DNA of 64,000 nt, from contig NZ_SMFX01000001.1 of the NCBI RefSeq assembly GCF_004339085.1, forward strand, positions 2,584,573 through 2,648,572, written 5' to 3'. Below the pieces are notes generated by a model that had not been told where the DNA came from, searched no databases, and saw only the letters and a list, made by a program, of their open reading frames with translations. The position numbers and the translations under genes were made by a program. Of this stretch, positions 46,591 to 60,687 are shown in pieces (position 1 is the first letter of the stretch; each line of letters begins with the position of its first letter). Source of the stretch: Thiogranum longum (GTDB taxonomy: Bacteria; Pseudomonadota; Gammaproteobacteria; DSM-19610).

Positions 46591-46715
46591 TGTTCCCAGA
46601 CGATCGTTCATGGCTGAACATGAACATTCACATAATGAATCGCAGATAACTGCGAAAAAGCAGACAAGGCGGCCGGATCCACGAAATGACCCGGCACCGC
46701 AAGAGGACGGGAAAA

Positions 46716-47147
46716 ATGGAAAATTTCACGCCAGTGGCTTCGCTGGTCGGCGGCATATTGATTGGTCTCGCCGGAGCAGCCATGTTGTATTTCAATGCCA
46801 AGATTGCCGGTATCAGCGGTATTTTCGGCGGACTCCTTCAAACCAAAAAGAACGACACCCTGTGGCGCGTACTGTTTGTTGCCGGCCTGCTCAGCGGTGG
46901 CATTGTCATCGATCTTTTTCACCCCGCAGCGCTCGATTTCAGCGTTGACCGATCCATGCCTGCCGTGATCGTTGCCGGCCTGCTGGTTGGCTTCGGGGCA
47001 CGTCTCGGCAATGGCTGTACCAGCGGCCACGGTGTCTGCGGTATTGGCCGACTCGCACCGCGTTCTATTGTCGCCGCTGCGACATTCATTGTCACAGGTG
47101 CAATTACTGCCATCGTTGTAAACCACTACTTCGGGGGTTCGATCTGA
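46716..47147 (+). CDS. YeeE/YedE-family membrane protein, N-terminal half
   Basis: A 143-residue membrane protein of the sulfur-transport family (thiosulfate uptake TsuA and PmpA relatives). About four helices are visible, and the signature GARLGNGCTSGHGVCGIGRL carries the two Cys thought to handle the sulfur group. It is a split form: the second half is the next gene, whose ATG overlaps this stop. The ATG at 46716 is supported by GAGGACGGG. It is first in the sigma-54-linked cluster, so import of a sulfur compound is the likely role. Confidence 0.88.
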   Translation: MENFTPVASLVGGILIGLAGAAMLYFNAKIAGISGIFGGLLQTKKNDTLWRVLFVAGLLSGGIVIDLFHPAALDFSVDRSMPAVIVAGLLVGFGARLGNGCTSGHGVCGIGRLAPRSIVAAATFIVTGAITAIVVNHYFGGSI

Positions 47148-47620
47148 TGTTGCCTAATATTGTAATTTTCCTTAGCGGGTTTGTTTTTTCCATTGGCCTT
47201 GCCGCTTCCGGCATGACGCAACCGGAAAAAGTCATAAGCTTCCTCGACTTTGTAGGTAACTGGGATCCCAGCCTGGTCATGGTGCTGCTTGGCGCGGTAG
47301 TAACCTATTTCATCAGCCAGCGACTGATACTCAAGCGTGACAGCGGTGTATTCGGCGACAAATTCCAGCTGCCCACCCGTATGGATATAGACACTCCGCT
47401 GGTTGCAGGCGCCGCCATGTTCGGTGTTGGCTGGGGCCTGGTCGGCTTTTGCCCAGGTCCGGCGCTGGTTTCCGGCGTCACTGGTAACCCCCAGGTTCTC
47501 ACCTTCGTGCTGTCCATGTCGCTTGGCATGTACCTGTTTGGCTCCCTGCATCTGCGTTACAGCAGTGAGCCCGACGGTGGCGCAAGCCCGCTTGATGCCA
47601 TCGCAGTTCGCAGTACCTGA
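47147..47620 (+). CDS. YeeE/YedE-family membrane protein, C-terminal half (DUF6691-like)
   Basis: A 157-residue membrane protein that pairs with the preceding gene. It has the second family signature, VGWGLVGFCPGPALVSG with a conserved Cys, and SIGLAASGMTQPEKVISFLDFVGNWDPSLV near the start. Four or so helices are predicted. The start overlaps the previous stop (TGATG), giving coupled translation. Together the halves equal one full-length YedE/TsuA-like transporter. The substrate is inferred, not shown; thiosulfate or persulfide sulfur is likely. Confidence 0.88.
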   Translation: MLPNIVIFLSGFVFSIGLAASGMTQPEKVISFLDFVGNWDPSLVMVLLGAVVTYFISQRLILKRDSGVFGDKFQLPTRMDIDTPLVAGAAMFGVGWGLVGFCPGPALVSGVTGNPQVLTFVLSMSLGMYLFGSLHLRYSSEPDGGASPLDAIAVRST

Positions 47621-47635
47621 CCGGAGCGAGACACT

Positions 47636-48445
47636 ATGGTCAAGGAAACCTTTTTCGGTACCCGCATTAAACGCATGATGACGCTGCTTTTCGCTCTAGT
47701 TATTGCGGTTGTGCTGGGATATCGCTTCACTCACAAGCCCAACTTCCTGGCGGTCGAAACTGATGCCGTTGCGGCACTGGAAGGCAAGCATCTCGCACTG
47801 AACGGGCGCGACGGAATTGCCGCCTGTTCAGCCTGCCACGGCCAGAACGGTGAAGGCAATGAACCGCTAGGTTACCCGCGACTTGCCGGCCTGCACCCGC
47901 GCTACATCGCCAAGCAGTTACAGGACTTTGCACGTGACCAGATGGATATCGGTGTCAAGGTCGATCCGATTGCCCGCGACTACCAGAAAACGCCGCGCAT
48001 CTATAAAGACCTCACCATCTACTCCCCCGGTATTCGCCGCGACGCCATGATGAACCCGATTGCGCAGGCCCTGACCGAAGAAGAGATCTACAACGTATCC
48101 CACTACTACGCGAGCCTGCCGTTTTCCGCCAACCCTGAACCGGTCGATTTCGAAACCCTGGAGCGTGGGCACGAACTCGCAGTACGTGGAAAACCCGAAT
48201 ACCTGATGCCGCGCTGCAATGCCTGTCACGGACCGAATGGCGAAGGCTTCGGCGAACACTTCCCGCCACTGGCCGGGCAACCGGTCAAATACATTGTCCG
48301 CCAGATCAACAAGTGGCAAAACGGCGACCGGGACAATGATCAGCTCGCCATGATGAAGAACACGGCCAACCTGCTGACGGATGGCGACAAGATTAACGCC
48401 GCACGCTATTACAACAACAAATCGTACAGCGTTAACCAGGAGTAA
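47636..48445 (+). CDS. Membrane-anchored diheme cytochrome c
   Basis: A 269-residue protein with an N-terminal membrane anchor (MTLLFALVIAVVLGYRF) and two class I cytochrome c domains. The heme motifs are CSACH (64-68) and CNACH (194-198), with later Met residues as likely axial ligands. The repeated CHGxNGEG pattern is that of c4/c553-type electron carriers. Placed just before a TsdA-like cytochrome, it is a good candidate for the electron acceptor that passes electrons to the terminal oxidase. Confidence 0.92.
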   Translation: MVKETFFGTRIKRMMTLLFALVIAVVLGYRFTHKPNFLAVETDAVAALEGKHLALNGRDGIAACSACHGQNGEGNEPLGYPRLAGLHPRYIAKQLQDFARDQMDIGVKVDPIARDYQKTPRIYKDLTIYSPGIRRDAMMNPIAQALTEEEIYNVSHYYASLPFSANPEPVDFETLERGHELAVRGKPEYLMPRCNACHGPNGEGFGEHFPPLAGQPVKYIVRQINKWQNGDRDNDQLAMMKNTANLLTDGDKINAARYYNNKSYSVNQE

Positions 48446-48452
48446 CGGCACC

Positions 48453-49361
48453 ATGAAAATAATTCCTTTCCTGCTGCTGGCCATTGCTGTAGCAACGGGT
48501 GCGCCACCCATCGCAAAAGCCGAACCGCTTGATCCGCTGGAGGTACGTCCTACCCTGGTACGTCCGCAGGTCAGCCTGCCGACTAACCTGATTACCGTGC
48601 CAGTGGTTAACCCGGGCGAGTATTTTGTACCGCCTGCCTATGACGATATCCCGGATGACAAAACCGGCGACATGATTCGCTGGGGGCGCAATATTTTTGT
48701 GAACACGCAGAAATATGCACCGCGATATGCCGGCAATGGCCTGAATTGTGTCAGCTGCCACCTGTCAGAGGGGCGCCAGCCTTACGCGGCCCCGCTGTGG
48801 GCCGCCTACCCGATTTACCCGGAATCCCGTAACAAGACCAAGCGTGTCGTGACTTTCCCGCAACGTATTCAGTCCTGTTTCAAATACAGCATGGATGGTA
48901 TCGCCCCGACAGTAGATGCCCCGGAAATGGATGCGCTGGTGACCTACGCCAAGTGGCTTTCGACCGGTGCACCGGTTGGTGTGGCGCTGCCGGGCCGCGG
49001 CTTTGCAAGCATCAAGAAAACACACGACCCCTCGACTATTGAGGGCGAAATTATCTACAACTCCCGCTGCGCTATCTGTCATGGCGCCAATGGTGAAGGG
49101 CAAAAGAACCGTAACGGAGAGGGATACATGTTCCCGCCACTGTGGGGCATGGACTCCTTCAACCGCGCTGCCGGCCTCAACAAGGTGAAAACCGCGGCAC
49201 AGTTCATAAAGGCCAACATGCCGCTGGGCTCCGGTTACACGCTGACCGATGACGAGGCGCTGGACGTTGCCGCCTACATGTGGATTCACTTCCGCCCGGA
49301 TGACCCGCGCGCCTCATTCTTCATGAACCGCTTTTCACCAAAACCCGGCGGAGGTAACTGA
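48453..49361 (+). CDS. TsdA-like diheme thiosulfate dehydrogenase
   Basis: A periplasmic diheme cytochrome of 302 residues (signal peptide IIPFLLLAIAVATGAPPIAKA). The heme sites are CVSCH (99-103) and CAICH (206-210). The context GRNIFVNTQKYAPRYAGNGLNC and QRIQSCFKYSMDG matches TsdA; Cys142 lies where TsdA uses a Cys as axial ligand of the active heme. TsdA joins two thiosulfates to tetrathionate, or the reverse. It starts eight bases after the diheme carrier. A different sulfur substrate is possible given the unusual neighbours. Confidence 0.85.
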   Translation: MKIIPFLLLAIAVATGAPPIAKAEPLDPLEVRPTLVRPQVSLPTNLITVPVVNPGEYFVPPAYDDIPDDKTGDMIRWGRNIFVNTQKYAPRYAGNGLNCVSCHLSEGRQPYAAPLWAAYPIYPESRNKTKRVVTFPQRIQSCFKYSMDGIAPTVDAPEMDALVTYAKWLSTGAPVGVALPGRGFASIKKTHDPSTIEGEIIYNSRCAICHGANGEGQKNRNGEGYMFPPLWGMDSFNRAAGLNKVKTAAQFIKANMPLGSGYTLTDDEALDVAAYMWIHFRPDDPRASFFMNRFSPKPGGGN

Positions 49362-49363
49362 GC

Positions 49364-51025
49364 ATGAATCGCAGCAACACTCACCCGCTGGTGCGTCGTT
49401 TCCTGCCGTTCACGGAATGGTTGCCGATGCTCGACGCCATGACGGTACGTAATGACATCTGGGCAGGTGTTGCCGCCGGCATCCTGATTCTTCCACAGGC
49501 CATTGCACTGGCCACCATGGCGGGGCTGCCACCGGAGATCGGGTTGTATACGTCGATCTTCCCGGTAATCGTGTGTGCGCTGTTTGGCTCGTCCTGGCAC
49601 GTACTGTCCGGCCCCAACACTTCGATCTCGGTAATGGTTGCCACCATCATCGGCGGTTACGCCAGCCTCGGCACACCGGACTGGATCATGTACACGCTGA
49701 CGCTGACCTTTATCGCCGGTGTCATACAGTTACTGTTCGGGGTGCTGAAGCTGGGCGTGGTGTTCAACTACTTCTCGCACACCGTCATGGTCGCCATTGT
49801 CACCGGCGTTGGTATCATTATTATTATCCAGCAGATCGGTAACTTCCTGGGACTGACGGTCAACCCCGGCGAACCGGTTCAAGACACCCTGTATTCCATG
49901 CTGTTCCGCATGCCCGAAGTGAACTGGTGGGCCGCATCACTGGGTATACTCACTGTCGTTACCGGCATGCTGGTCAAACGCTGCTTCCCGCGTCAGCCGG
50001 CCATTATCATTGCGGTTATCGTCGGCATGGCCGGTGGATGGCTGCTCGAATTTCTGTTCGGTGCCGGCAATACCAATGTCGACAAGCTGGGTTACCTGTC
50101 ACTGGAAATCCTGCCCCTGTCAGCACCTGACTTCAGTCCGACCAACTTCTACGAAGCGGCAGAAGGCCTGATGATGGGCGGATTCATCATCGCCTTTCTC
50201 GGCCTGATGCAGTCTGCCGTCATCGCGCGCGCCATGGCGGTCAAGTCCGGTCAGCATGTGGACATCGACCAGGAAGTCATCGGCCAGGGCCTGTCCAATG
50301 TGGTTGGCAGTTTCCTGAGCTGTTACCCCAGCTGCGGATCATTCAACCGCAGTGCATCCAACATCGAAATCGGCGGAAAAACGCCACTGGTTGGCATTGT
50401 CTCGGCAATCGTGCTGGCGCTGCTGGTGGCTTTTGCCTCACCCATCATTGCGCAGATGCCACTGTCCGTCATGGCGGGCATCCTGTTCCTGGTCGGTGCC
50501 GGCCTGATCAAGATAAAGGACATCAGGAAGCTGCTGGCGATCCGCGGCGAGCCGCGCATTTCATTTCTGCTGGTCTGTTTCACCACGGTTTACGGCGGCC
50601 TGGAGTGGGCAGTCATGCTGGGTATTGCGGTTTCCATCATTGCCTACATGCGCCATGTATCGCGCCCGGAACTGGACCTGCTGTTCGAGAACGAGGCTGA
50701 ACAGTACATGCCTGATGGCGTGCATGACGCAACAGTAGTGCAACTGTCCGGCTCTATTTTCTTCGGTTCCACACACGCTATTGAACGAGGTTTCTCGGAC
50801 CTGGCTCACGAGGATCATCGTGCCAACCCGCTGATAATCGCCGGCGAACTGATAGACAATATGGACGATGCCGGCGCCGCTTCGATCGCGCAGGAAGCAC
50901 GCAAGCGCAGGGAGTCCGGTGGCGATCTGATTCTGTGGCTGCGCGACCATAATCTCGACGACCTGCTACAGCGTAGTGGCCTGGTATCGCTACTGGGTAA
51001 GTACAACATTCATTACGCGAGCTGA
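49364..51025 (+). CDS. SulP-family anion permease with STAS domain
   Basis: A 553-residue inner-membrane transporter: about ten or more helices (residues 30-420; entry motif GILILPQAIALATMAGLPPEIGLYTS, and YPSCGSFNRSASN) and a C-terminal STAS domain (about 440-550). SulP proteins move sulfate, bicarbonate or related anions. Here it could export sulfate made by sulfur oxidation or import anions. It begins three bases after the TsdA-like gene and is followed at 17 bases by the DsrE gene. Confidence 0.92.
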   Translation: MNRSNTHPLVRRFLPFTEWLPMLDAMTVRNDIWAGVAAGILILPQAIALATMAGLPPEIGLYTSIFPVIVCALFGSSWHVLSGPNTSISVMVATIIGGYASLGTPDWIMYTLTLTFIAGVIQLLFGVLKLGVVFNYFSHTVMVAIVTGVGIIIIIQQIGNFLGLTVNPGEPVQDTLYSMLFRMPEVNWWAASLGILTVVTGMLVKRCFPRQPAIIIAVIVGMAGGWLLEFLFGAGNTNVDKLGYLSLEILPLSAPDFSPTNFYEAAEGLMMGGFIIAFLGLMQSAVIARAMAVKSGQHVDIDQEVIGQGLSNVVGSFLSCYPSCGSFNRSASNIEIGGKTPLVGIVSAIVLALLVAFASPIIAQMPLSVMAGILFLVGAGLIKIKDIRKLLAIRGEPRISFLLVCFTTVYGGLEWAVMLGIAVSIIAYMRHVSRPELDLLFENEAEQYMPDGVHDATVVQLSGSIFFGSTHAIERGFSDLAHEDHRANPLIIAGELIDNMDDAGAASIAQEARKRRESGGDLILWLRDHNLDDLLQRSGLVSLLGKYNIHYAS

Positions 51026-51041: not shown

Positions 51042-51464
51042 ATGACTTTCAAATACTGGTTAACCGGTCTGGCTCTTGCAGCCATTACATCCACAACCCT
51101 GGCTGCCGAGCAGTTGAAGTACCAGGTACTGCTGCAGGTCAGCGAAAACAGTGTCGACAAAATGAATACCACGCTGAACACTGCGCGCAACCTGCAGCAC
51201 CAGTTTGGACCGGATAACGTCGAAGTTGAAATCGTCGTATTCGGTGATGGTGTCAACACACTGAAGTACTACGCCCCCATTCCGATTGCCGACAAGGTCG
51301 AGGAGGCAACTGTCGAGGGCGTGCGTATCGTGGCCTGTGAAATAGCCATGCGTACTCACAAGCTGCGTCCTTCCGACATGCTTCAGCAACTGCGCTACGT
51401 GCCTTCAGGCGTTTCAGAACTGGTTGAAAAACAATACCAGGGCTGGGCCTACGTGCGCCCCTGA
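51042..51464 (+). CDS. Periplasmic DsrE-family protein
   Basis: A 140-residue DsrE/F-like protein with a signal peptide (WLTGLALAAITSTTLA). The fold is suggested by KYQVLLQVSENSVDKMNTTLNTARNL, VEIVVFGDGVN and the single Cys in GVRIVACEIAMR, which is where sulfur-carrying members bear the persulfide. Cytoplasmic DsrE relatives move sulfur between proteins; an exported one suggests periplasmic sulfane handling. It lies between the SulP permease and a SoxB-like gene. One Cys only, so it would be a carrier rather than a redox enzyme. Confidence 0.87.
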   Translation: MTFKYWLTGLALAAITSTTLAAEQLKYQVLLQVSENSVDKMNTTLNTARNLQHQFGPDNVEVEIVVFGDGVNTLKYYAPIPIADKVEEATVEGVRIVACEIAMRTHKLRPSDMLQQLRYVPSGVSELVEKQYQGWAYVRP

Positions 51465-51480
51465 GACGGATAACAGATTC

Positions 51481-53313
51481 ATGACACTAACTCGCACACT
51501 ACTCCGCAACCTGGCTCTGCCGCTGGTGCTGTTCGCATCCGCCGCCAGCGCCGGCGATGGTGAAGTCACCCTGATTCACATCGGTGACCTGCACGGTCAC
51601 CTGGTGCCGCGTCCCAATATGCGTGATGGTGACGATGATCGTGGTGTTATGTCCGGCGGGCTGGCCTATGTCTATGACCAGATCAAGAAAATCCGGAGCG
51701 AACACCCGGATAATCTGCTGGTTAACACAGGTGACACCATCCAGGGTTCTGCAGAAGCACTGTATTCGCGCGGTAAAGCCATGGCCGACATCCTCAACCT
51801 GTTTGAAATCGACGCCTTTGCTCCCGGGAACTGGGATTTCCTGTACGGTCCGGAGCGCTTTCGCGAACTGTTTGCCGAGGTAGACGGACGCAAGCCAATG
51901 TTCAACTGGCAGACATTGTCCGCCAACCTCTACTACGCAACGTTATATGAATTCCCTGAAACGCCCTATGCAAAACAGGCCGGCCAGCGTGTTGTGCCCC
52001 CTTACATGATCAAGGAAATTAATGGTGTACGAATAGGCATCATCGGGCTTACCGCAGACCGTGGCCCGCAAGCTGTGAGCACCCGCGTCATGGACGGCTT
52101 TTACCTGACACCTGGCGAGGAGGAACTACAGGCCGCCATCCCCAAACTGCGCAACGAGGAAAAGGTCGATCTGCTGGTTCTGATCTCTGAACGTGGCCTT
52201 GCAGCGAATCTGGAGTTGGTGGAAACCTGGCCCGGCATTGATGTTGTACTGTCCTCGGACATGCACGAGGAAACCTGGAAGGTTGTCGAGGCAAAATCCG
52301 GCACGCTACTGGTCGAGGAAGGCCAGGACGGCACCATGGTTGGTGAAATGAACCTGACAGTCAGGAATGGCAAGCTGGCCAGCTGGGACTTCAAGGCACA
52401 CCGCATCACGGTAGAAAACAACCAGCCCGACCCGATGATCGCCGCCAGGGTCGAGGAGATTCGCAAAACATTCGTCAAGGGTGCGGAATTTGTTCCTCAC
52501 GTCAACCCGATGAACGGCTACGTACTGCGCGCACCGATTGATACAACAATCGGTTATACCCGGAAGGCCCTGCACCGCTCCAACTATGCCGATGCCAAAT
52601 CCCTGCCGGCAGTTATTGAAGGTTCATCGCATGACTTCCTGGCCGACGCCTTTCGCGGCGCCTGCGAATCAGACATCGGCCTCATCCGCGGTTTTCGTTA
52701 TGGAACCCATATCGCGCCCGGACCGATCAAGCTGGAAGACATCTACCACTATATTCCGATTGGCCCGCAGATCGCCTGCGGCCTGATCAGCGGAGACGAC
52801 CTGCGCCTGATGATAGAGAACGGCGCACAGGGTTCGTTGACCAGTATTGTAGGTTACTGGGGTGGCGGCTGGCTGCTGGCTTTTTCCGGCATCACCTATG
52901 ATCTCGATCCGTATAACCAATGGGGCTTCCGCGCCAGTAACATTCGCGTCAATAACGAGGCCCTGGATCCGGAACGCTACTACACGGTGGCGGGTTACTG
53001 GTACCTGGATCTGCCCGGCAAGATCAATCGCTCGCGAGCACTGGAAATCAAGGTGCTCAAGGACCGCTTTGGCGGCATTGTCGATGCAACTGCCGTAGTA
53101 GCCTACTACCTGCAAACATTGCCCGGTCACACTGTCGATCCCGAATTGAATCGCATTAACCTGCTGAAACCCTTGCCACCGCCTATTGCAGGCAACCGTG
53201 AAATACAGCCGCTGGGCGGTGCCCCGCGTCCCGAGTATCTGCTTGCAGATGAAGACATCAAGCGCCTCGCTAAACGGCGCACTACGCAGAATACTGCTCA
53301 TGGAGACCAATAA
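51481..53313 (+). CDS. SoxB-like periplasmic metallophosphatase-fold protein, copy 1
   Basis: A 610-residue exported protein (signal peptide LLRNLALPLVLFASAASA) of the 5'-nucleotidase/SoxB family. The metal motifs are LIHIGDLHGHLVP, VNTGDTIQGSAEAL and GNWDFLYGPERF (116-120). The Trp and FxYG match SoxB GHWEFTYG rather than the GNHE of nucleotidases, favouring thiosulfohydrolase-like chemistry. Two ligand positions differ: the usual SHxG is ISERG and the usual GHTH is SDMH (260-262). A C-terminal nucleotidase-type domain is present. The stop overlaps the MMPL start. Confidence 0.82.
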   Translation: MTLTRTLLRNLALPLVLFASAASAGDGEVTLIHIGDLHGHLVPRPNMRDGDDDRGVMSGGLAYVYDQIKKIRSEHPDNLLVNTGDTIQGSAEALYSRGKAMADILNLFEIDAFAPGNWDFLYGPERFRELFAEVDGRKPMFNWQTLSANLYYATLYEFPETPYAKQAGQRVVPPYMIKEINGVRIGIIGLTADRGPQAVSTRVMDGFYLTPGEEELQAAIPKLRNEEKVDLLVLISERGLAANLELVETWPGIDVVLSSDMHEETWKVVEAKSGTLLVEEGQDGTMVGEMNLTVRNGKLASWDFKAHRITVENNQPDPMIAARVEEIRKTFVKGAEFVPHVNPMNGYVLRAPIDTTIGYTRKALHRSNYADAKSLPAVIEGSSHDFLADAFRGACESDIGLIRGFRYGTHIAPGPIKLEDIYHYIPIGPQIACGLISGDDLRLMIENGAQGSLTSIVGYWGGGWLLAFSGITYDLDPYNQWGFRASNIRVNNEALDPERYYTVAGYWYLDLPGKINRSRALEIKVLKDRFGGIVDATAVVAYYLQTLPGHTVDPELNRINLLKPLPPPIAGNREIQPLGGAPRPEYLLADEDIKRLAKRRTTQNTAHGDQ

Positions 53314-55598
53314 TGGTTGAGACAATCGCAACCGCTATCCTGCGAGGACGCTACCTGTGGGTTCTTCTTACCGTCATGTTCGTCGTATGGGCTGCCATGG
53401 GCGGGCGCAACCTGACGCTGACAACCGACTACCGCGTATTCTTCAGTGAGGAAAATCCGCAACTGACGGCTTTCGAAGCGCTACAGAACACCTATACCAA
53501 CAATGACAATGTTCTGATAGTACTGGCACCAAAGAACCACAAGGTGTTCACACGCAAGACCTTGGCCGCCGTCGAAGCTATCACCGAGGAAGCCTGGCAG
53601 GTGCCCTTCTCGATTCGGGTCGATTCACTGACCAACTACCAGCACACAGTAGCCGAGGAAGATGACCTGGTAGTCGGCGACCTGGTAGTAGATGGTGCCA
53701 ACCTGATGGACTCCAGCCTTCAGCGCATCAAGAACATTGCGCTGCACGAACCACTACTGGTGAATCGCCTGATATCACCCAGCGGTGAAGTGACCGGCAT
53801 CAATATCACCATCCAGACACCGGGTATCGACCAGACCACCGAAGTCCCCAGTGTTGTGGCGTACGCACGTGACATGGTGAAGAAGTACCAGGACATCTAC
53901 CCGCACCTGGACTTTTATATCACTGGCACGGTGATGATGAACAACGCTTTCCCCGAAGCATCCAAACACGACATGCGCACACTGGTACCACTGATGTTCC
54001 TGGTTGTGTTTGTTGCACTGTGGTTCCTGTTGCGCTCGCTCACCGGAATTATCGCCACCCTGCTGGTCGTGGCTTTTTCCATCGCGACCGCTATGGGACT
54101 GGCTGGCTGGATCGGTATTCGCATGACACCCCCGGTCGGTAGTGCACCAACTATTGTACTGACACTGGCGGTTGCGCACTGCGTTCATCTGCTGGTTGCA
54201 TTGATGCACAACATGACGAAGGGCATGGACAAGCGTGCTGCCATGTTCGAGGCCCTGCGCGTCAATTTCCAGCCTATCGCGCTGACCAGTCTGACAACAA
54301 CTGTTGGCTTCCTGAGCATGAACTTCTCGGACGCACCACCGTTCCGCGACCTCGGCAACATCGTCGCCATGGGTGTAATTGCCGCATGGGTCTACTCCTT
54401 TGTCTTTATGCCGGCACTGGTGATGATTCTTCCGATACGCACACATGCCAACCAGGAAACTGCCAGCAAGTGGATGAGCAGTCTTGGTGAGTTTGTACTG
54501 AACAACCGCCGTATGTTGTTCTGGGGCAACCTTGCCCTGCTGGTCGTCCTGGCATTCTCCATTACCCGTAATGAACTGAACGACCAGTTTGTCGAATATT
54601 TCGACGACAGCATCGAGTTCCGGCGCGCCACAGACTTCGTCACCGACAATCTGACCGGCATCTACACCATCGACTACTCGCTGAAAACCGGTGGTAGCGG
54701 CAGTATCAACGAGCCGGAACAGCTGCAGGTTATTGAAAACTTCGCCAACTGGTATCGCGAACAGCCGGAAGTCATTCACGTCAATGTGATTACCGATATC
54801 ATCAAACGGCTGAACATGAACCTGCACGGTGATGACCGTAGCTGGTACCGGATACCTGAAAGCCGTGAACTTGCTGCACAATATTTCCTTCTCTATGAAA
54901 TGTCGCTGCCCTATGGCCTGGATCTGAACAACCAGATCGATATTGACAAGTCGGCCTCACGTATGACGGTAACGGTAAATAATCTCACCACCAACGAACT
55001 GCTTCTGGTTGAAGCACGTGCGAGGGAATGGCTGGAAGCCAACGCACCCGCACACATGCACACCGTTGGCGCCAGTCCGGCCATCATGTTTGCGCATATC
55101 ACATCGCGCAATATCCGCAGCATGCTCAAGGGCAATGCCATGGCCATGGTGTTGATCTCCTTCATGCTGATTTTTGCCTTCCGTTCGATCAAGTTCGGGT
55201 TACTCAGCCTGGTACCCAACCTGATGCCCGCCATTATGGCCTTCGGCCTGTGGGGACTGCTGGTCGGTGAGGTAGGTGTTTCGCTTTCCGTGGTAGTTGC
55301 CATGACGCTGGGTATCGTGGTGGATGACACCATTCACTTCATGAGCAAGTACCTGCGTGCCCGTCGCGAACAGGGACTGAGCGCCGAAGACGCGATTCGT
55401 GCTGCCTTCTCCAGTGTTGGCGTCGCACTGATCATGACTTCGATCGTACTTATTGCCGGTTTTGCGGTGCTGGCCCTTTCTTCATTCAAGATGAACGCCG
55501 GCATGGGGCTCCTGACGGCCATTACCATCGCACTGGCACTGTTTGCCGACTTCCTGTTCCTTCCGCCCCTGTTACTGAAAATCAAAGGTAAAGTCTGA
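53313..55598 (+). CDS. MMPL/RND-family membrane permease
   Basis: A 761-residue permease with the two-fold RND plan: each half has one helix, a large periplasmic domain and five helices. The second half carries VVVAMTLGIVVDDTIHFMSKYLRARREQG, the family proton-site region. Such single-chain MMPL proteins move lipids or other hydrophobic molecules out of the inner membrane. Its start overlaps the SoxB-like stop by one base, and its end overlaps the LolA-like start, so three genes are translationally linked. The cargo is unknown. Confidence 0.9.
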   Translation: MVETIATAILRGRYLWVLLTVMFVVWAAMGGRNLTLTTDYRVFFSEENPQLTAFEALQNTYTNNDNVLIVLAPKNHKVFTRKTLAAVEAITEEAWQVPFSIRVDSLTNYQHTVAEEDDLVVGDLVVDGANLMDSSLQRIKNIALHEPLLVNRLISPSGEVTGINITIQTPGIDQTTEVPSVVAYARDMVKKYQDIYPHLDFYITGTVMMNNAFPEASKHDMRTLVPLMFLVVFVALWFLLRSLTGIIATLLVVAFSIATAMGLAGWIGIRMTPPVGSAPTIVLTLAVAHCVHLLVALMHNMTKGMDKRAAMFEALRVNFQPIALTSLTTTVGFLSMNFSDAPPFRDLGNIVAMGVIAAWVYSFVFMPALVMILPIRTHANQETASKWMSSLGEFVLNNRRMLFWGNLALLVVLAFSITRNELNDQFVEYFDDSIEFRRATDFVTDNLTGIYTIDYSLKTGGSGSINEPEQLQVIENFANWYREQPEVIHVNVITDIIKRLNMNLHGDDRSWYRIPESRELAAQYFLLYEMSLPYGLDLNNQIDIDKSASRMTVTVNNLTTNELLLVEARAREWLEANAPAHMHTVGASPAIMFAHITSRNIRSMLKGNAMAMVLISFMLIFAFRSIKFGLLSLVPNLMPAIMAFGLWGLLVGEVGVSLSVVVAMTLGIVVDDTIHFMSKYLRARREQGLSAEDAIRAAFSSVGVALIMTSIVLIAGFAVLALSSFKMNAGMGLLTAITIALALFADFLFLPPLLLKIKGKV

Positions 55599-56389
55599 TG
55601 AAAATTCTGAATACGTTTTTAATCGCCCTGCTCGGTATGAGCGCCTTCAGCAGCCCATTGCTTGCTGATACGGCAGATGACAGGGGACTCGAGATCGCCG
55701 TTGAGGCAGACAAACGCAAAAACGGTTTCGGTGATTTTACTGCCGACCTGCTGATGGTTCTGCGAAACAAACAGGGCGAGGAAAGCACGCGCGAGCTGCG
55801 CTCCAAAAACCTTGAAGTTGAAGGCGATGGCGACAAGAGCCTGACCATCTTTGACCGCCCGCAGGATATCAAGGGCACCGCGCTACTGACCTTTACACAT
55901 AAAACCGGCTCCGATGACCAATGGCTGTACCTCCCTGCGCTGAAACGCGTCAAGCGTATTGCCTCCAACAACAAGTCAGGCCCGTTTATGGGCAGCGAGT
56001 TTGCCTACGAGGATATCAGCTCCCAGGAAGTCGAGAAGTACACCTACAAGTACTTGCGCGACGAACCGCTTGACGGGGAAGCCATGTTTGTTTTCGAGCG
56101 CTACCCGGTTGACAAGAAATCCGGATATACCCGCCAGGTCGTATGGATGGACCAGGACGAGTACCGGGAACGCAAGATTGTTTACTACGATCGCAAAAAC
56201 TCCCTGCTGAAAACACTCACCTTCTCCGGCTATGAAAAGTATCTGGACAAGTTCTGGAAAGCTGCAGAAATGGACATGACCAACCACCAGACCGGCAAGA
56301 GCACAAAGCTTGCCTGGAGCAACTACGCGTTCGGCACCGGGCTGGGTGATCGTGATTTTGATCGCAACTCGCTGAAACGGGCGCGCTAG
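55598..56389 (+). CDS. Outer-membrane lipoprotein-sorting (LolA-like) protein
   Basis: A 263-residue periplasmic protein (signal peptide LIALLGMSAFSSPLLA) of the LolA-like family found beside MMPL permeases. Signature segments are ADKRKNGFGDFTADLLMVLRNKQGEES, LLTFTHKTGSDDQWLYLPALKRVKRI and GSEFAYEDISSQEVEKYTY. The half-barrel fold binds acyl chains or other lipids. It starts inside the MMPL stop (TGATG), and an outer-membrane barrel gene follows at 13 bases. It is likely to ferry the permease cargo across the periplasm. Confidence 0.9.
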   Translation: MKILNTFLIALLGMSAFSSPLLADTADDRGLEIAVEADKRKNGFGDFTADLLMVLRNKQGEESTRELRSKNLEVEGDGDKSLTIFDRPQDIKGTALLTFTHKTGSDDQWLYLPALKRVKRIASNNKSGPFMGSEFAYEDISSQEVEKYTYKYLRDEPLDGEAMFVFERYPVDKKSGYTRQVVWMDQDEYRERKIVYYDRKNSLLKTLTFSGYEKYLDKFWKAAEMDMTNHQTGKSTKLAWSNYAFGTGLGDRDFDRNSLKRAR

Positions 56390-56402
56390 GACACCAGCCC
56401 CC

Positions 56403-57608
56403 ATGATGCATGCCGGATACAGACTGAAAACCATCTCCTTGTGCACTGCCATGTGCGCCAGCTACGCCGGTGTAGCTGGAGAATGGTCGGGTAACGCCGG
56501 CGTGGAATGGCTGGCCTTCCCCAAGCAGGCTCTGTCTGATGCCCAGCATGACAGCTACCTGTCGTTTTCACTCGAGCCCGAGTATTACCACGAGTGGGAC
56601 CACGGCAAGAAGAGCTTCACATTTGAGCCGTTCCTGCGTCGTGCGCAATACGATACCGCACGCACACACGCTGATATCCGCGAACTGAACATTGGCGTAA
56701 CTTCGGAATGGTGGGAACTGACAGCCGGGATCAGCAAGGTCTACTGGGGAATCACCGAGTCGCAGCACCTGGTCGATATCGTCAACCAGACTGACCTGGT
56801 AGAGAATCTCGACACCGAAGACAAGCTGGGACAACCCATGCTTGACCTGACACTGGTCGGTGGTGACCTCGGAACACTCGACCTGTTTGTTCTGCCCGGC
56901 TTTCGTGAAAGGACCTTCCTCGATGAAGACGGGCGGCCGCGCTTCGGGCTGGTAGTGGACCGGCAAAACCCGCTGTATGAGAACAACAGCGAAGACCGCC
57001 ATATCGACTTTGCAGCACGCTGGTACCAGTACATCGGTGACTGGGAAGTCGGGCTTTCCCATTTCCATGGCACAGCACGCACACCTGAAATGATCATTAC
57101 TCCCACCGGCCCGTTTACCCCCCCGGTTCTGACGCCGTTTTATCCCCAGATCGACCAGACCGGGCTGGAAGTGCAGGGTATTTTCGGCGCATGGTTGTGG
57201 AAACTGGAAGCCATTCACAACACCGGCTTCGACCACAGCCCCTTCTTCGCCGCTGTCGGCGGTTTTGAATACACCTTTGTACTGGAGAACGGTATGGAGA
57301 TCGGGGCGCTGATGGAATATTCGTGGGATGAACGGGACGAGAAAACACCTTCCCGGTTCCAGAATGACATGCTGGTCGGCACCCGACTGACCTTCAATGA
57401 TGTACAGAGCACACAGGTACTGGCCGGAGTGATTGTGGATATGGAGGGTGCCGGTCACAGTTACAACCTGGAAGCCGAACGCCGTTTTGGCGAAAGCTGG
57501 AAGCTTTCGCTGGAAGCCCGTGGGGTATTTCACGTCGAACCCGGCGACTTCCTCTATCAGTCCAGAAGAGACAACTCGTTCCGCTTCACCGCGGCGAGAT
57601 ACTTTTAA
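56403..57608 (+). CDS. Outer-membrane beta-barrel protein of the MMPL cassette
   Basis: A 401-residue exported barrel. After a signal peptide ending near AGVAGEW, strand-like segments alternate (YLSFSLEPEYYHEWDHGKKSFTFEPFLRRAQYDT, IRELNIGVTSEWWELTAGISKVYWG) to a C-terminal aromatic (FTAARYF). The sequence is acidic and aromatic-rich; it resembles the barrel proteins that accompany MMPL and LolA-like genes. It is the natural outer-membrane end of that three-part path. It closes the tight run of overlapping genes; the next gene is 25 bases on. Confidence 0.78.
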   Translation: MMHAGYRLKTISLCTAMCASYAGVAGEWSGNAGVEWLAFPKQALSDAQHDSYLSFSLEPEYYHEWDHGKKSFTFEPFLRRAQYDTARTHADIRELNIGVTSEWWELTAGISKVYWGITESQHLVDIVNQTDLVENLDTEDKLGQPMLDLTLVGGDLGTLDLFVLPGFRERTFLDEDGRPRFGLVVDRQNPLYENNSEDRHIDFAARWYQYIGDWEVGLSHFHGTARTPEMIITPTGPFTPPVLTPFYPQIDQTGLEVQGIFGAWLWKLEAIHNTGFDHSPFFAAVGGFEYTFVLENGMEIGALMEYSWDERDEKTPSRFQNDMLVGTRLTFNDVQSTQVLAGVIVDMEGAGHSYNLEAERRFGESWKLSLEARGVFHVEPGDFLYQSRRDNSFRFTAARYF

Positions 57609-57633: not shown

Positions 57634-58422
57634 ATGAACAATCTATATGCATCGTCACCGGATGTCACCAGCATCCGCTACAAAACAGCGCCACAGGATG
57701 GCAAGATAAAAATATTCATCCTGGGCCACAAGGACTTTTCCATAGATAGCATGGCCCGCATGGTTGAAGACAAGGGCAACAACTACATGGTTTCCTGTGT
57801 AGAACCCGGCGACGCCTGCATGGCGAAGTTAGTTGCAACCGAACCCGATGTGCTGATGATCCAGAAGGAAGTCCTCAAGGAACCCCTGGAACGTACCATC
57901 CATGGCATCCTTGGCGAGTACCCGAATATCCGCATCCTGGTATTCGGGAAAGACATGGACAGTGACTACCTGTACCGGCTGGTGCGGGCCGGCGTGCATG
58001 GCTATATCAACGAGCGCATGACCGGTGAACATATCGAACGCGCCCTGGCATCCATTCTCGAGGGCAACAACTGGATTGAACGCCACATCATGGAGCGCTT
58101 CATCAAGACCCAGCAGGAACTTGATGATGTACTGGAAACACAGTTCTACGAGAAAATCAGCCAGTTGTGCGACAATCTGACCAAACGCGAAACAGAAATT
58201 CTCTGCGAAGTCATGAAAGGCCTGGCCATCAAGCAGATCGCCGAGGAAGTGCACCTGTCACACCAGGGCGTGAAAATGCACCTCGCCAAGCTGTTCAAGA
58301 AGTTCAGGGTCAGCAACAGGAATCAGCTGATACTGGCCGCCTTCGACGAGATCAGCCCGGTAGAAGATCTTTCCATGCTGTTGCGTAATGGCCTGCAGAA
58401 AAAATTGCACGCCAGCGGATAA
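57634..58422 (+). CDS. LuxR-type regulator with a degenerate receiver domain
   Basis: A 262-residue NarL-like protein. The C-terminal helix-turn-helix is standard (LTKRETEILCEVMKGLAIKQIAEEVHLSHQGVKMHLAKLFKKF, about 187-230). The receiver keeps its overall pattern, but the acidic pair is Gly31-His32 (IFILGHKD) and the phospho-acceptor position is Gln77 (PDVLMIQKEVL). It cannot be phosphorylated in the normal way and may respond to a ligand or partner. The ATG at 57634 has AGGG upstream. It closes the cassette before a terminator. Confidence 0.88.
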   Translation: MNNLYASSPDVTSIRYKTAPQDGKIKIFILGHKDFSIDSMARMVEDKGNNYMVSCVEPGDACMAKLVATEPDVLMIQKEVLKEPLERTIHGILGEYPNIRILVFGKDMDSDYLYRLVRAGVHGYINERMTGEHIERALASILEGNNWIERHIMERFIKTQQELDDVLETQFYEKISQLCDNLTKRETEILCEVMKGLAIKQIAEEVHLSHQGVKMHLAKLFKKFRVSNRNQLILAAFDEISPVEDLSMLLRNGLQKKLHASG

Positions 58423-58767: not shown

Positions 58768-60687
58768 ATGAAGCTCACCCGATACCTGACTCTGGCTGCA
58801 CTGATTCTGGCCCATGGATCACTGCAGGCTGCAACAAAAACAATTACATTGATCGAACTCAACGATCTGCACGCGCACCTGATTCCGCACAAGGACCTGG
58901 TATCTGATGGCAATGGTGGTACCACAATCGCCACTCGCGGCGGCCTGACGCGCATCGCAACTGCGGTGAAGCAGATCCGCGCTGATAATCCCAACAATAT
59001 TCTGATGAATATCGGCGATACCACGCATGGTGGCGTTGAAGCGCTGTTCTCGATGGGTAACGCGATCATGGGTCCGCTGAATTCGCTCGGCGTCGATGTA
59101 GGCGTTGCCGGTAACTGGGACTTTTACTACACTCCTGGCGTAACACGGGCACGCTATGGGCGATTCGATACCAGCCTTGGCGGCATCATCCAGGTTCCGA
59201 TCCCCGGCATGGACAATTTGATTGGTATCATTCAGCCGAATTATCCCAATCTTGGTGCGAACGTCTCTGATTTCACGGATTTCTTCCCGATTCTTCCTGA
59301 CTTTATGCCCGCGACATGGAACAAGACCATCGCCGGTGTAAATGTTGGCTTTATCGGGCTGACATCTGACATTGTCGCCGACATGCACAGCATGCTCGCC
59401 ACCGGCTTTAACTTTGCCCAGGGCGAATCAGAACATCTCGATATCGTTCAGCGTTATGCCGACAAGCTGCGTAACAACGGTGCAAACCTGGTTGTTGTTA
59501 TGAGTGAACTGGGGATTCACAAGACAAAGCGCCTGGCCGACCTGGTCGACCCGGGTTCCGTTGACGTGTTCTTTGCTGCCCATACCCACGAAGCTACCTA
59601 TACACCTATCACTTCCGAGAGTGGTGCACTGGTCGTGGAAGCCGGCAACGACGGTTACCTTGGACGTATGGATATCGTAGTCGATGTTCGCAAGCGCTGG
59701 CGCAGCACCACCGTTACGGTGAAAAGTAAAAACTGGACCCTGATTGAACTTGATGACAGCGTGGCAGAAGACCCGGACATGGTTGCCCTGGTTAACGAAG
59801 CCCGTGCGCCCTACCTTGGCGACAACGTGTTCCTGGAGGCGCCCCCGTTTGTCATGCAGACGCTGACCCAGTCCATCGACACGGTGGTAGGTCATGCCGA
59901 CAGCCTGATCGACCGCAAGGATTCACTGGAAAGCAGTTTCAATAACGGCTGGTCAGACCTGTTACGCCAGACGACCGGTACCCAGATGGCCATGACACCC
60001 GGTTTCCGTATGGGTGCCACCATTGGCGCAACCGGTACGGTGTATGAAGATGGTGCAGTGGCCGACGGCGCAATCACCATTGAGGACGCCTACCGTTTCT
60101 TCCCGATGGCCTACTCTATCTCCACCGGGCAGGTCACTGGCGTCCGCTTCCGCGAGATCGTCGAGGACGTATTGACCCGTACCTTCTCTCCCGATGTCTT
60201 TAAACAGCGCGGCGGCTGGACCTACGGCTTCGCTGGTGTGGATCTGACAGTTGACCTGGCCGCCCCTGATGGTCAACGCATTCAGGCCATGAGTTACAGC
60301 GACACCGGCGTGGCAATATCTGACAGCGACAATATCAGCATCACCGGCTGCCGACGTACACCCATTGAAGAAGGCGACGATATTCTCTGCGCCTACGACG
60401 GCTTCACCAACATCGACCCGGTTATCGGTGGTGGCCCGGGACCGTTCGACCTGTTGCCTATCCAGGCAGTCGAACTGTTCCAGCAGGCACTTGCAGCCAA
60501 CCTTTTCAATGGCGCACGGGCCAACATCACGGATAGCAACAATACGCCTCGCTGGCCTGAAACCGAGTTCATTCAGCCGCTGGAAGGCGTCGGTACACCA
60601 ACTGGAGATAATGGTGGCGCTGAAGATTGTGGCGCATTCGCCTTCCTGTGTGGTGGTGGCGGTTTTGGAGGCTTCTTCGGCTTCTGA
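58768..60687 (+). CDS. SoxB-like periplasmic metallophosphatase-fold protein, copy 2
   Basis: A 639-residue exported protein (signal peptide YLTLAALILAHGSLQA) of the 5'-nucleotidase/SoxB family. Motifs are LIELNDLHAHLIP, MNIGDTTHGGVEAL and GNWDFYYTPG, with the Trp shared with SoxB. The third motif is VVMSELGIHKTK, where the usual metal His (SH) is Glu, while AAHTHEA is intact. A nucleotidase-type C-terminal domain follows. The extreme end is unusual: CGAFAFLCGGGGFGGFFGF, with two Cys and a Gly/Phe run. It has its own leader and terminator. Confidence 0.82.
   Translation: MKLTRYLTLAALILAHGSLQAATKTITLIELNDLHAHLIPHKDLVSDGNGGTTIATRGGLTRIATAVKQIRADNPNNILMNIGDTTHGGVEALFSMGNAIMGPLNSLGVDVGVAGNWDFYYTPGVTRARYGRFDTSLGGIIQVPIPGMDNLIGIIQPNYPNLGANVSDFTDFFPILPDFMPATWNKTIAGVNVGFIGLTSDIVADMHSMLATGFNFAQGESEHLDIVQRYADKLRNNGANLVVVMSELGIHKTKRLADLVDPGSVDVFFAAHTHEATYTPITSESGALVVEAGNDGYLGRMDIVVDVRKRWRSTTVTVKSKNWTLIELDDSVAEDPDMVALVNEARAPYLGDNVFLEAPPFVMQTLTQSIDTVVGHADSLIDRKDSLESSFNNGWSDLLRQTTGTQMAMTPGFRMGATIGATGTVYEDGAVADGAITIEDAYRFFPMAYSISTGQVTGVRFREIVEDVLTRTFSPDVFKQRGGWTYGFAGVDLTVDLAAPDGQRIQAMSYSDTGVAISDSDNISITGCRRTPIEEGDDILCAYDGFTNIDPVIGGGPGPFDLLPIQAVELFQQALAANLFNGARANITDSNNTPRWPETEFIQPLEGVGTPTGDNGGAEDCGAFAFLCGGGGFGGFFGF

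Follow-up and report, generated by a model that had tools for sequence, protein, structure and literature searches.

What does a SoxB-like hydrolase do when two histidines of its metal site have been replaced and no soxYZ or soxAX genes lie next to it? The question is raised by a gene whose product we call SoxB', found in the window, a 64,000-nucleotide stretch of DNA. The gene belongs to a tight, co-directional row in the order YeeE-half, DUF6691, TsdB, TsdA, SulP, DsrE, SoxB', MMPL, LolA-like and outer-membrane-type protein, laid out in the window as follows:

46686-47620, plus strand: two short YeeE/YedE-family proteins (PF04143 half and DUF6691), a PmpA/PmpB-like pair at the head of the operon
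47636-48445, plus strand: TsdB-like dihaem cytochrome c
48453-49361, plus strand: TsdA-like thiosulfate dehydrogenase with two CXXCH motifs and a Cys haem ligand (QRIQSCF)
49364-51025, plus strand: SulP-family anion (sulfate) transporter
51042-51464, plus strand: periplasmic DsrE-family protein with a signal peptide and a single Cys (IVACEIAMR), a candidate sulfur carrier
51481-53313, plus strand: SoxB-like hydrolase SoxB', 610 aa, with a signal peptide and Metallophos and 5_nucleotid_C domains
53313-57608, plus strand: accessory genes, retained in Thiohalobacter and in L033, for an MMPL transporter, a LolA-like protein and an outer-membrane-type protein

The SoxB' reading frame runs from an ATG at 51481 to a stop codon ending at 53313; initiation at an alternative TTG, at 51424, would lengthen the protein by 19 residues and run into the DsrE gene. 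Its N-terminus reads as a Sec-type signal peptide. The TsdA-like neighbour possesses the two CXXCH motifs and the haem-1 Cys ligand expected of TsdA, and matches the structures of TsdBA (5lo9, 5e-57) and TsdA (2e-51). It carries Leu in place of the usual Met of GAGM, in the region where the haem-2 ligand is expected, as do its counterparts in L037 and L040. The core TsdB-TsdA-SulP-DsrE-SoxB' is conserved in nine loci (the window, L031, L032, L035 and L036-L040) that represent about three lineages, their hosts being Thiohalobacter, a Chromatiaceae MAG and other gammaproteobacterial MAGs. The YeeE/YedE pair, for which PmpA/PmpB serves as the comparison (PMC11582611), was found only in Thiohalobacter copies of the operon.

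All three motifs on which the case rests (PGNWDFLYG, ISERGLA and LSSDMHEE) are found in the translation, and alignment to T. thermophilus SoxB (2wdc) places GNW on SHW, SERG on SHNG and SDMH on GHTH. The earlier note, which had pointed out the SoxB-type Trp together with SERG and SDMH, was right in this respect. The ligand roles listed below are those which we take to hold from family knowledge (the UshA assignments) and from the alignments:

51586-51594, plus strand: D36 and H38 (GDLHGHL), metal-1 ligands by family knowledge, invariant in 60/60 proteins
51733-51735, plus strand: D85 (GDT), bridging ligand, invariant in 60/60
51829-51834, plus strand: N117, a metal-2 ligand that is His in classic SoxB, together with W118, the SoxB-type Trp at the position of the nucleotidase catalytic His
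52189-52191, plus strand: E237 (SERG), at the place of the metal-2 His in SHxG; 41/41 on the GNW branch, 0/30 nucleotidase controls
52258-52260, plus strand: D260 (SDMH), at the place of the metal-2 His in GHTH; 26/26 in the clade, two others on the Glu branch, 2/30 controls
52264-52266, plus strand: H262, retained metal-1 ligand, 60/60
52696-52698, plus strand: R406 (GFRYG), which corresponds to the Arg in VRWG of SoxB and occurs in none of the nucleotidase controls

Metal site 1 (D36, H38, D85 and H262) is kept, as it is in every one of the 60 family members. Metal site 2, as predicted from the alignment, is turned from a His-rich into an all-oxygen set, D85/N117/E237/D260. With such a set, one of the harder ions Mn, Mg and Ca is more likely at this site than a His-liking metal. 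Classic SoxB rows read H,H,H at the metal-2 positions in 10/10 cases, and the 30 nucleotidase controls have His at 237 without exception and His at 260 in 28, the other two carrying Asp. The replacement of two His ligands by Glu and Asp, claimed from the single sequence, is therefore a conserved property (41/41 and 26/26), and all seven ligand positions are invariant across the 26 divergent members of the SDMH clade. The suspicion that such substitutions might be common among nucleotidases finds nothing in its favour for Glu237 and a little for Asp260. It follows that the Glu is diagnostic and that the Glu and Asp pair is a rare combination, while Asp260 alone was dropped as a unique mark because of the two controls that share it. 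In L136 and L137, two members of the nucleotidase family, position 260 is Asp and position 38 is Tyr, so single ligand swaps do occur elsewhere in that family. Sequencing error, a pseudogene or chance are ruled out by the conservation of E237 and D260 and by dN/dS values of 0.08-0.13 among the Thiohalobacter orthologues, which indicate purifying selection.

The distribution of these residues follows a tree of 60 proteins (quick IQ-TREE, SH-aLRT support), a sample outside which the Erythrobacter flavus proteins, among them the SoxB D0Y83_01365, fall. The Glu form makes up one branch (support 98) that holds the GNW-type proteins, and the Asp form is nested in it as one clade (support 100). Its sister is a group of short SoxB-like proteins whose ligands are of the HW/SHLG/GHTH type (support 95), and classic SoxB forms a separate group (support 100). 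Outside the target clade Asp260 recurs in L024 and L050 (GDTH), both on the Glu branch; D260 arose once more elsewhere. On this tree the ligand changes are a clade signature, a two-step rebuilding of one metal site. When 369 gammaproteobacterial genomes were sampled, 17 gave a match to a profile of the clade at E <=1e-80, the weakest of these matches being Glu-form relatives.

SoxB' is predicted to have the SoxB fold and is at the same time other than SoxB proper. Against the SoxB equivalog model TIGR04486 it scores 195.4 bits, below the cutoff of 550, while the classic SoxB of the same genome (L048) reaches 887.5. This score was dropped as the sole separator of SoxB from nucleotidases, since a GNHD nucleotidase-like protein (L060), with 255 bits, exceeds SoxB'. 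The AlphaFold2 model (pLDDT 88.9) has SoxB as its best solved structural match (Z 37.7, rmsd 2.1, 477 residues), nucleotidase structures reaching Z <=35.6, a modest gap. In a profile search E is 8e-103 to SoxB versus 1e-59 to the best nucleotidase, with classic SoxBs included in the underlying alignment. What is shared with SoxB (TIGR04486; T. thermophilus 2wdc, 2wde and 4uwq) is the fold, the metal-1 ligands, the Trp of HW/NW and the Arg of V/FRW/YG; what differs is the metal-2 set (D,N,E,D versus D,H,H,H), the bit score, the lack of soxYZ alongside and the clade. The description of a SoxB-like protein with an altered metal site is thus borne out by score, fold and ligands.

That the operon has taken in a nucleotidase or phosphatase of the ordinary kind is the least credible of the readings considered here. 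SoxB' does belong to the family, its Pfam domains being those of 5'-nucleotidases, and with UshA and CD73 it shares the two-domain architecture, the Asn at 117 and the metal-1 ligands. However, Trp118 takes the place of the catalytic His of GNHE, which is present in 30/30 controls; E237 is found in none of them; R406 is missing from all of them, 27/30 having Gly there; and, in addition to D260, there is the sulfur-oxidation gene context. It is Trp118 and Arg406, both of which occur in all SoxB types, and a model closest to SoxB structures that set SoxB' apart from nucleotidases.

DsrE directly adjoins SoxB' in 12 loci of the SDMH clade, and its Cys is invariant in all aligned SoxB'-linked copies. 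In a thirteenth locus, L112, the two proteins appear to be fused: PF02635 is recognized at residues 659-738 with 25.8 bits (cutoff 22.7), and a DsrE profile built without L112 and searched against that one protein finds the domain at E 2e-9. The fusion is a single ORF of one MAG; a search of 38 further genomes, drawn for their kinship with the host, did not find it again. Furthermore, scanning of the neighbours revealed no DsrE or TsdA near many genes of the SDMH clade (e.g. L051, L052, L113-L117 and L121), and no common sulfur theme among the neighbours of other SDMH loci. A DsrE carrier therefore cannot be general unless it is encoded elsewhere in those genomes. The SDMH-type SoxB' of L111 (9495-11687) has a C-terminal tail rich in Cys (PF00839), and its neighbours are a divergent TsdA-like gene and one for a secreted DsrE-like protein. 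Secreted DsrE-like genes also adjoin classic SoxB genes (L041:902-1387 and L064:11772-12239), so the link between SoxB and DsrE is wider than the SDMH clade.

SoxYZ was said to be absent, which holds for the window and fails for the genome. The sole SoxY match (G000:C1:620801-621109) lies near the classic soxB (about 618-619 kb) and about 2 Mb from SoxB'. A family search covering 16 genomes with such SoxB-like genes detected SoxY in 15, this one among them. Since the genome encodes both SoxY and a classic SoxB, the SoxB' module comes on top of classic Sox and does not stand in for a pathway that is missing.

TsdA is an enzyme that makes tetrathionate. The DsrE-family protein DsrE3A of Metallosphaera cuprina takes a thiosulfate group from tetrathionate to give Cys-S-thiosulfonate (PMC4175335), SoxY-S-S-SO3 is bound by SoxB at its dimetal site (PMC5336275), and in E. 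flavus, in a cluster that includes tsdA, deletion of SoxB leads to accumulation of tetrathionate, the proposed pathway placing SoxB downstream of TsdA with no SoxYZ (PMC7608252). These published steps fit together, and from them we infer that SoxB' may hydrolyse DsrE-Cys-S-S-SO3-. TsdB-TsdA would oxidise thiosulfate to tetrathionate, or else attach thiosulfate itself, in the way that SoxAX loads SoxY; periplasmic DsrE, through its only Cys, would take up the thiosulfate group as Cys-S-S-SO3-; SoxB' would split off the terminal sulfonate by hydrolysis, so that sulfate is set free and DsrE is left with a persulfide that it hands on; and SulP might move sulfate or another anion. We hold it plausible, if somewhat short of probable, that thiosulfate is oxidised here by a module independent of SoxYZ, in which SoxB' acts in the periplasm as a metal-dependent S-S hydrolase. 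The narrower idea of a carrier-swapped Sox-like step, with DsrE standing in for SoxYZ, TsdA for SoxAX, and a SoxB relative with an all-oxygen site 2 cleaving the carrier-bound thiosulfonate, is put forward more tentatively. The earlier note had named the persulfide on DsrE as a possible substrate: the 12 loci, the apparent fusion and the invariant Cys speak for DsrE as the partner, but a hydrolase of this type would act on a thiosulfonate or on free tetrathionate, so the persulfide is expected as the product.

The step could also proceed without a carrier. SoxB' might hydrolyse free tetrathionate or another polythionate, as was proposed for E. flavus SoxB, with DsrE only collecting or relaying the sulfane sulfur afterwards. 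The adjacent TsdBA would supply tetrathionate, the short HW-type sister clade adjoins TsdBA in Bradyrhizobium, and the genetics of E. flavus were obtained in a system without SoxYZ (PMC7608252). This evidence is purely genetic, however, and a free substrate leaves both the DsrE adjacency and the apparent fusion unexplained, so we regard this route as possible, although doubtful. It is unlikely that SoxB' simply provides a second thiosulfohydrolase with a retuned metal site for the SoxYZ of the genome. SoxYZ could partner it in vivo, given that 15 of the 16 genomes encode SoxY, and fold, Trp and Arg are the same as in SoxB; but a classic SoxB already sits near soxY in the same genome, SoxY matches lie at other places than SoxB', and the local partner is DsrE. 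We have equally little belief in a catalytically weak or dead homologue that binds DsrE or serves for docking. With this would agree the two altered ligands and the fusion, while the invariance of the seven ligand positions in divergent members, dN/dS of about 0.1 in Thiohalobacter and the ability of the replacement residues to bind metal argue against it.

The TsdA-SoxB pathway of E. flavus 21-3 (PMC7608252) comes close to the SoxB' locus: a SoxB-like gene accompanies tsdB/tsdA with no local soxYZ, a likeness judged from the cluster description. It was the sole close parallel in a literature search for the SoxB-like/DsrE/YeeE combination, which itself was not found. The short SoxB-like proteins that plasmids encode next to TsdA or DsrE form the sister clade of the tree and differ from SoxB' in keeping HW, SHLG and GHTH-type ligands. 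The theme returns in Bacteroidota, where a Hymenobacter plasmid (L081:1226-7425) combines YeeE/DUF6691 and a TsdA-like cytochrome with DsrE and a SoxB-like gene of the short type. DsrE3A of M. cuprina (PMC4175335) is, like the DsrE of the window, a DsrE-family protein with Cys, and its reactive Cys gives a precedent for Cys-S-thiosulfonate; it is, however, archaeal, hdr-linked, equipped with two Cys and of a different DsrE group, whereas the window protein has a signal peptide and one Cys.

SoxB is in use as a marker gene of the Sox pathway. SoxB genes with no other sox genes have been reported in marine MAGs (PMC12345210). The operon of SoxB', TsdA and DsrE suggests an overlooked variant of thiosulfate oxidation; if this is true, a branch tied to TsdA and DsrE gives such solitary genes a testable role and warns against annotating genes of this branch as SoxB or nucleotidase. 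In addition, nature would then offer a graded set of metal-2 sites (H,H,H; N,E,H; N,E,D) for probing the role of each ligand in the dimetal hydrolase fold.

The family as a whole is expanded in this genome. A second SoxB-like paralogue in the window (58768-60687, plus strand) is of the Glu form with an intact second motif (GNWD/SELG/AHTH); it follows a LuxR-type regulator gene (about 57640-58422), and the same pair is seen in L032. Further SoxB-like genes lie outside the window (G000:C1, at about 588930, 1615927, 2894480-2896096, 2897128 and 618290; L047-L050), four of the Glu form and one classic SoxB. A tandem SoxB' copy in L051 (12671-14568, G045) is split into two frames and is probably a decaying duplicate. 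On a haloarchaeal plasmid (L083:4929-6713) a Glu-form SoxB-like gene (GNWD/TEIG/AHTH) is followed by rhodanese and multicopper oxidase genes.
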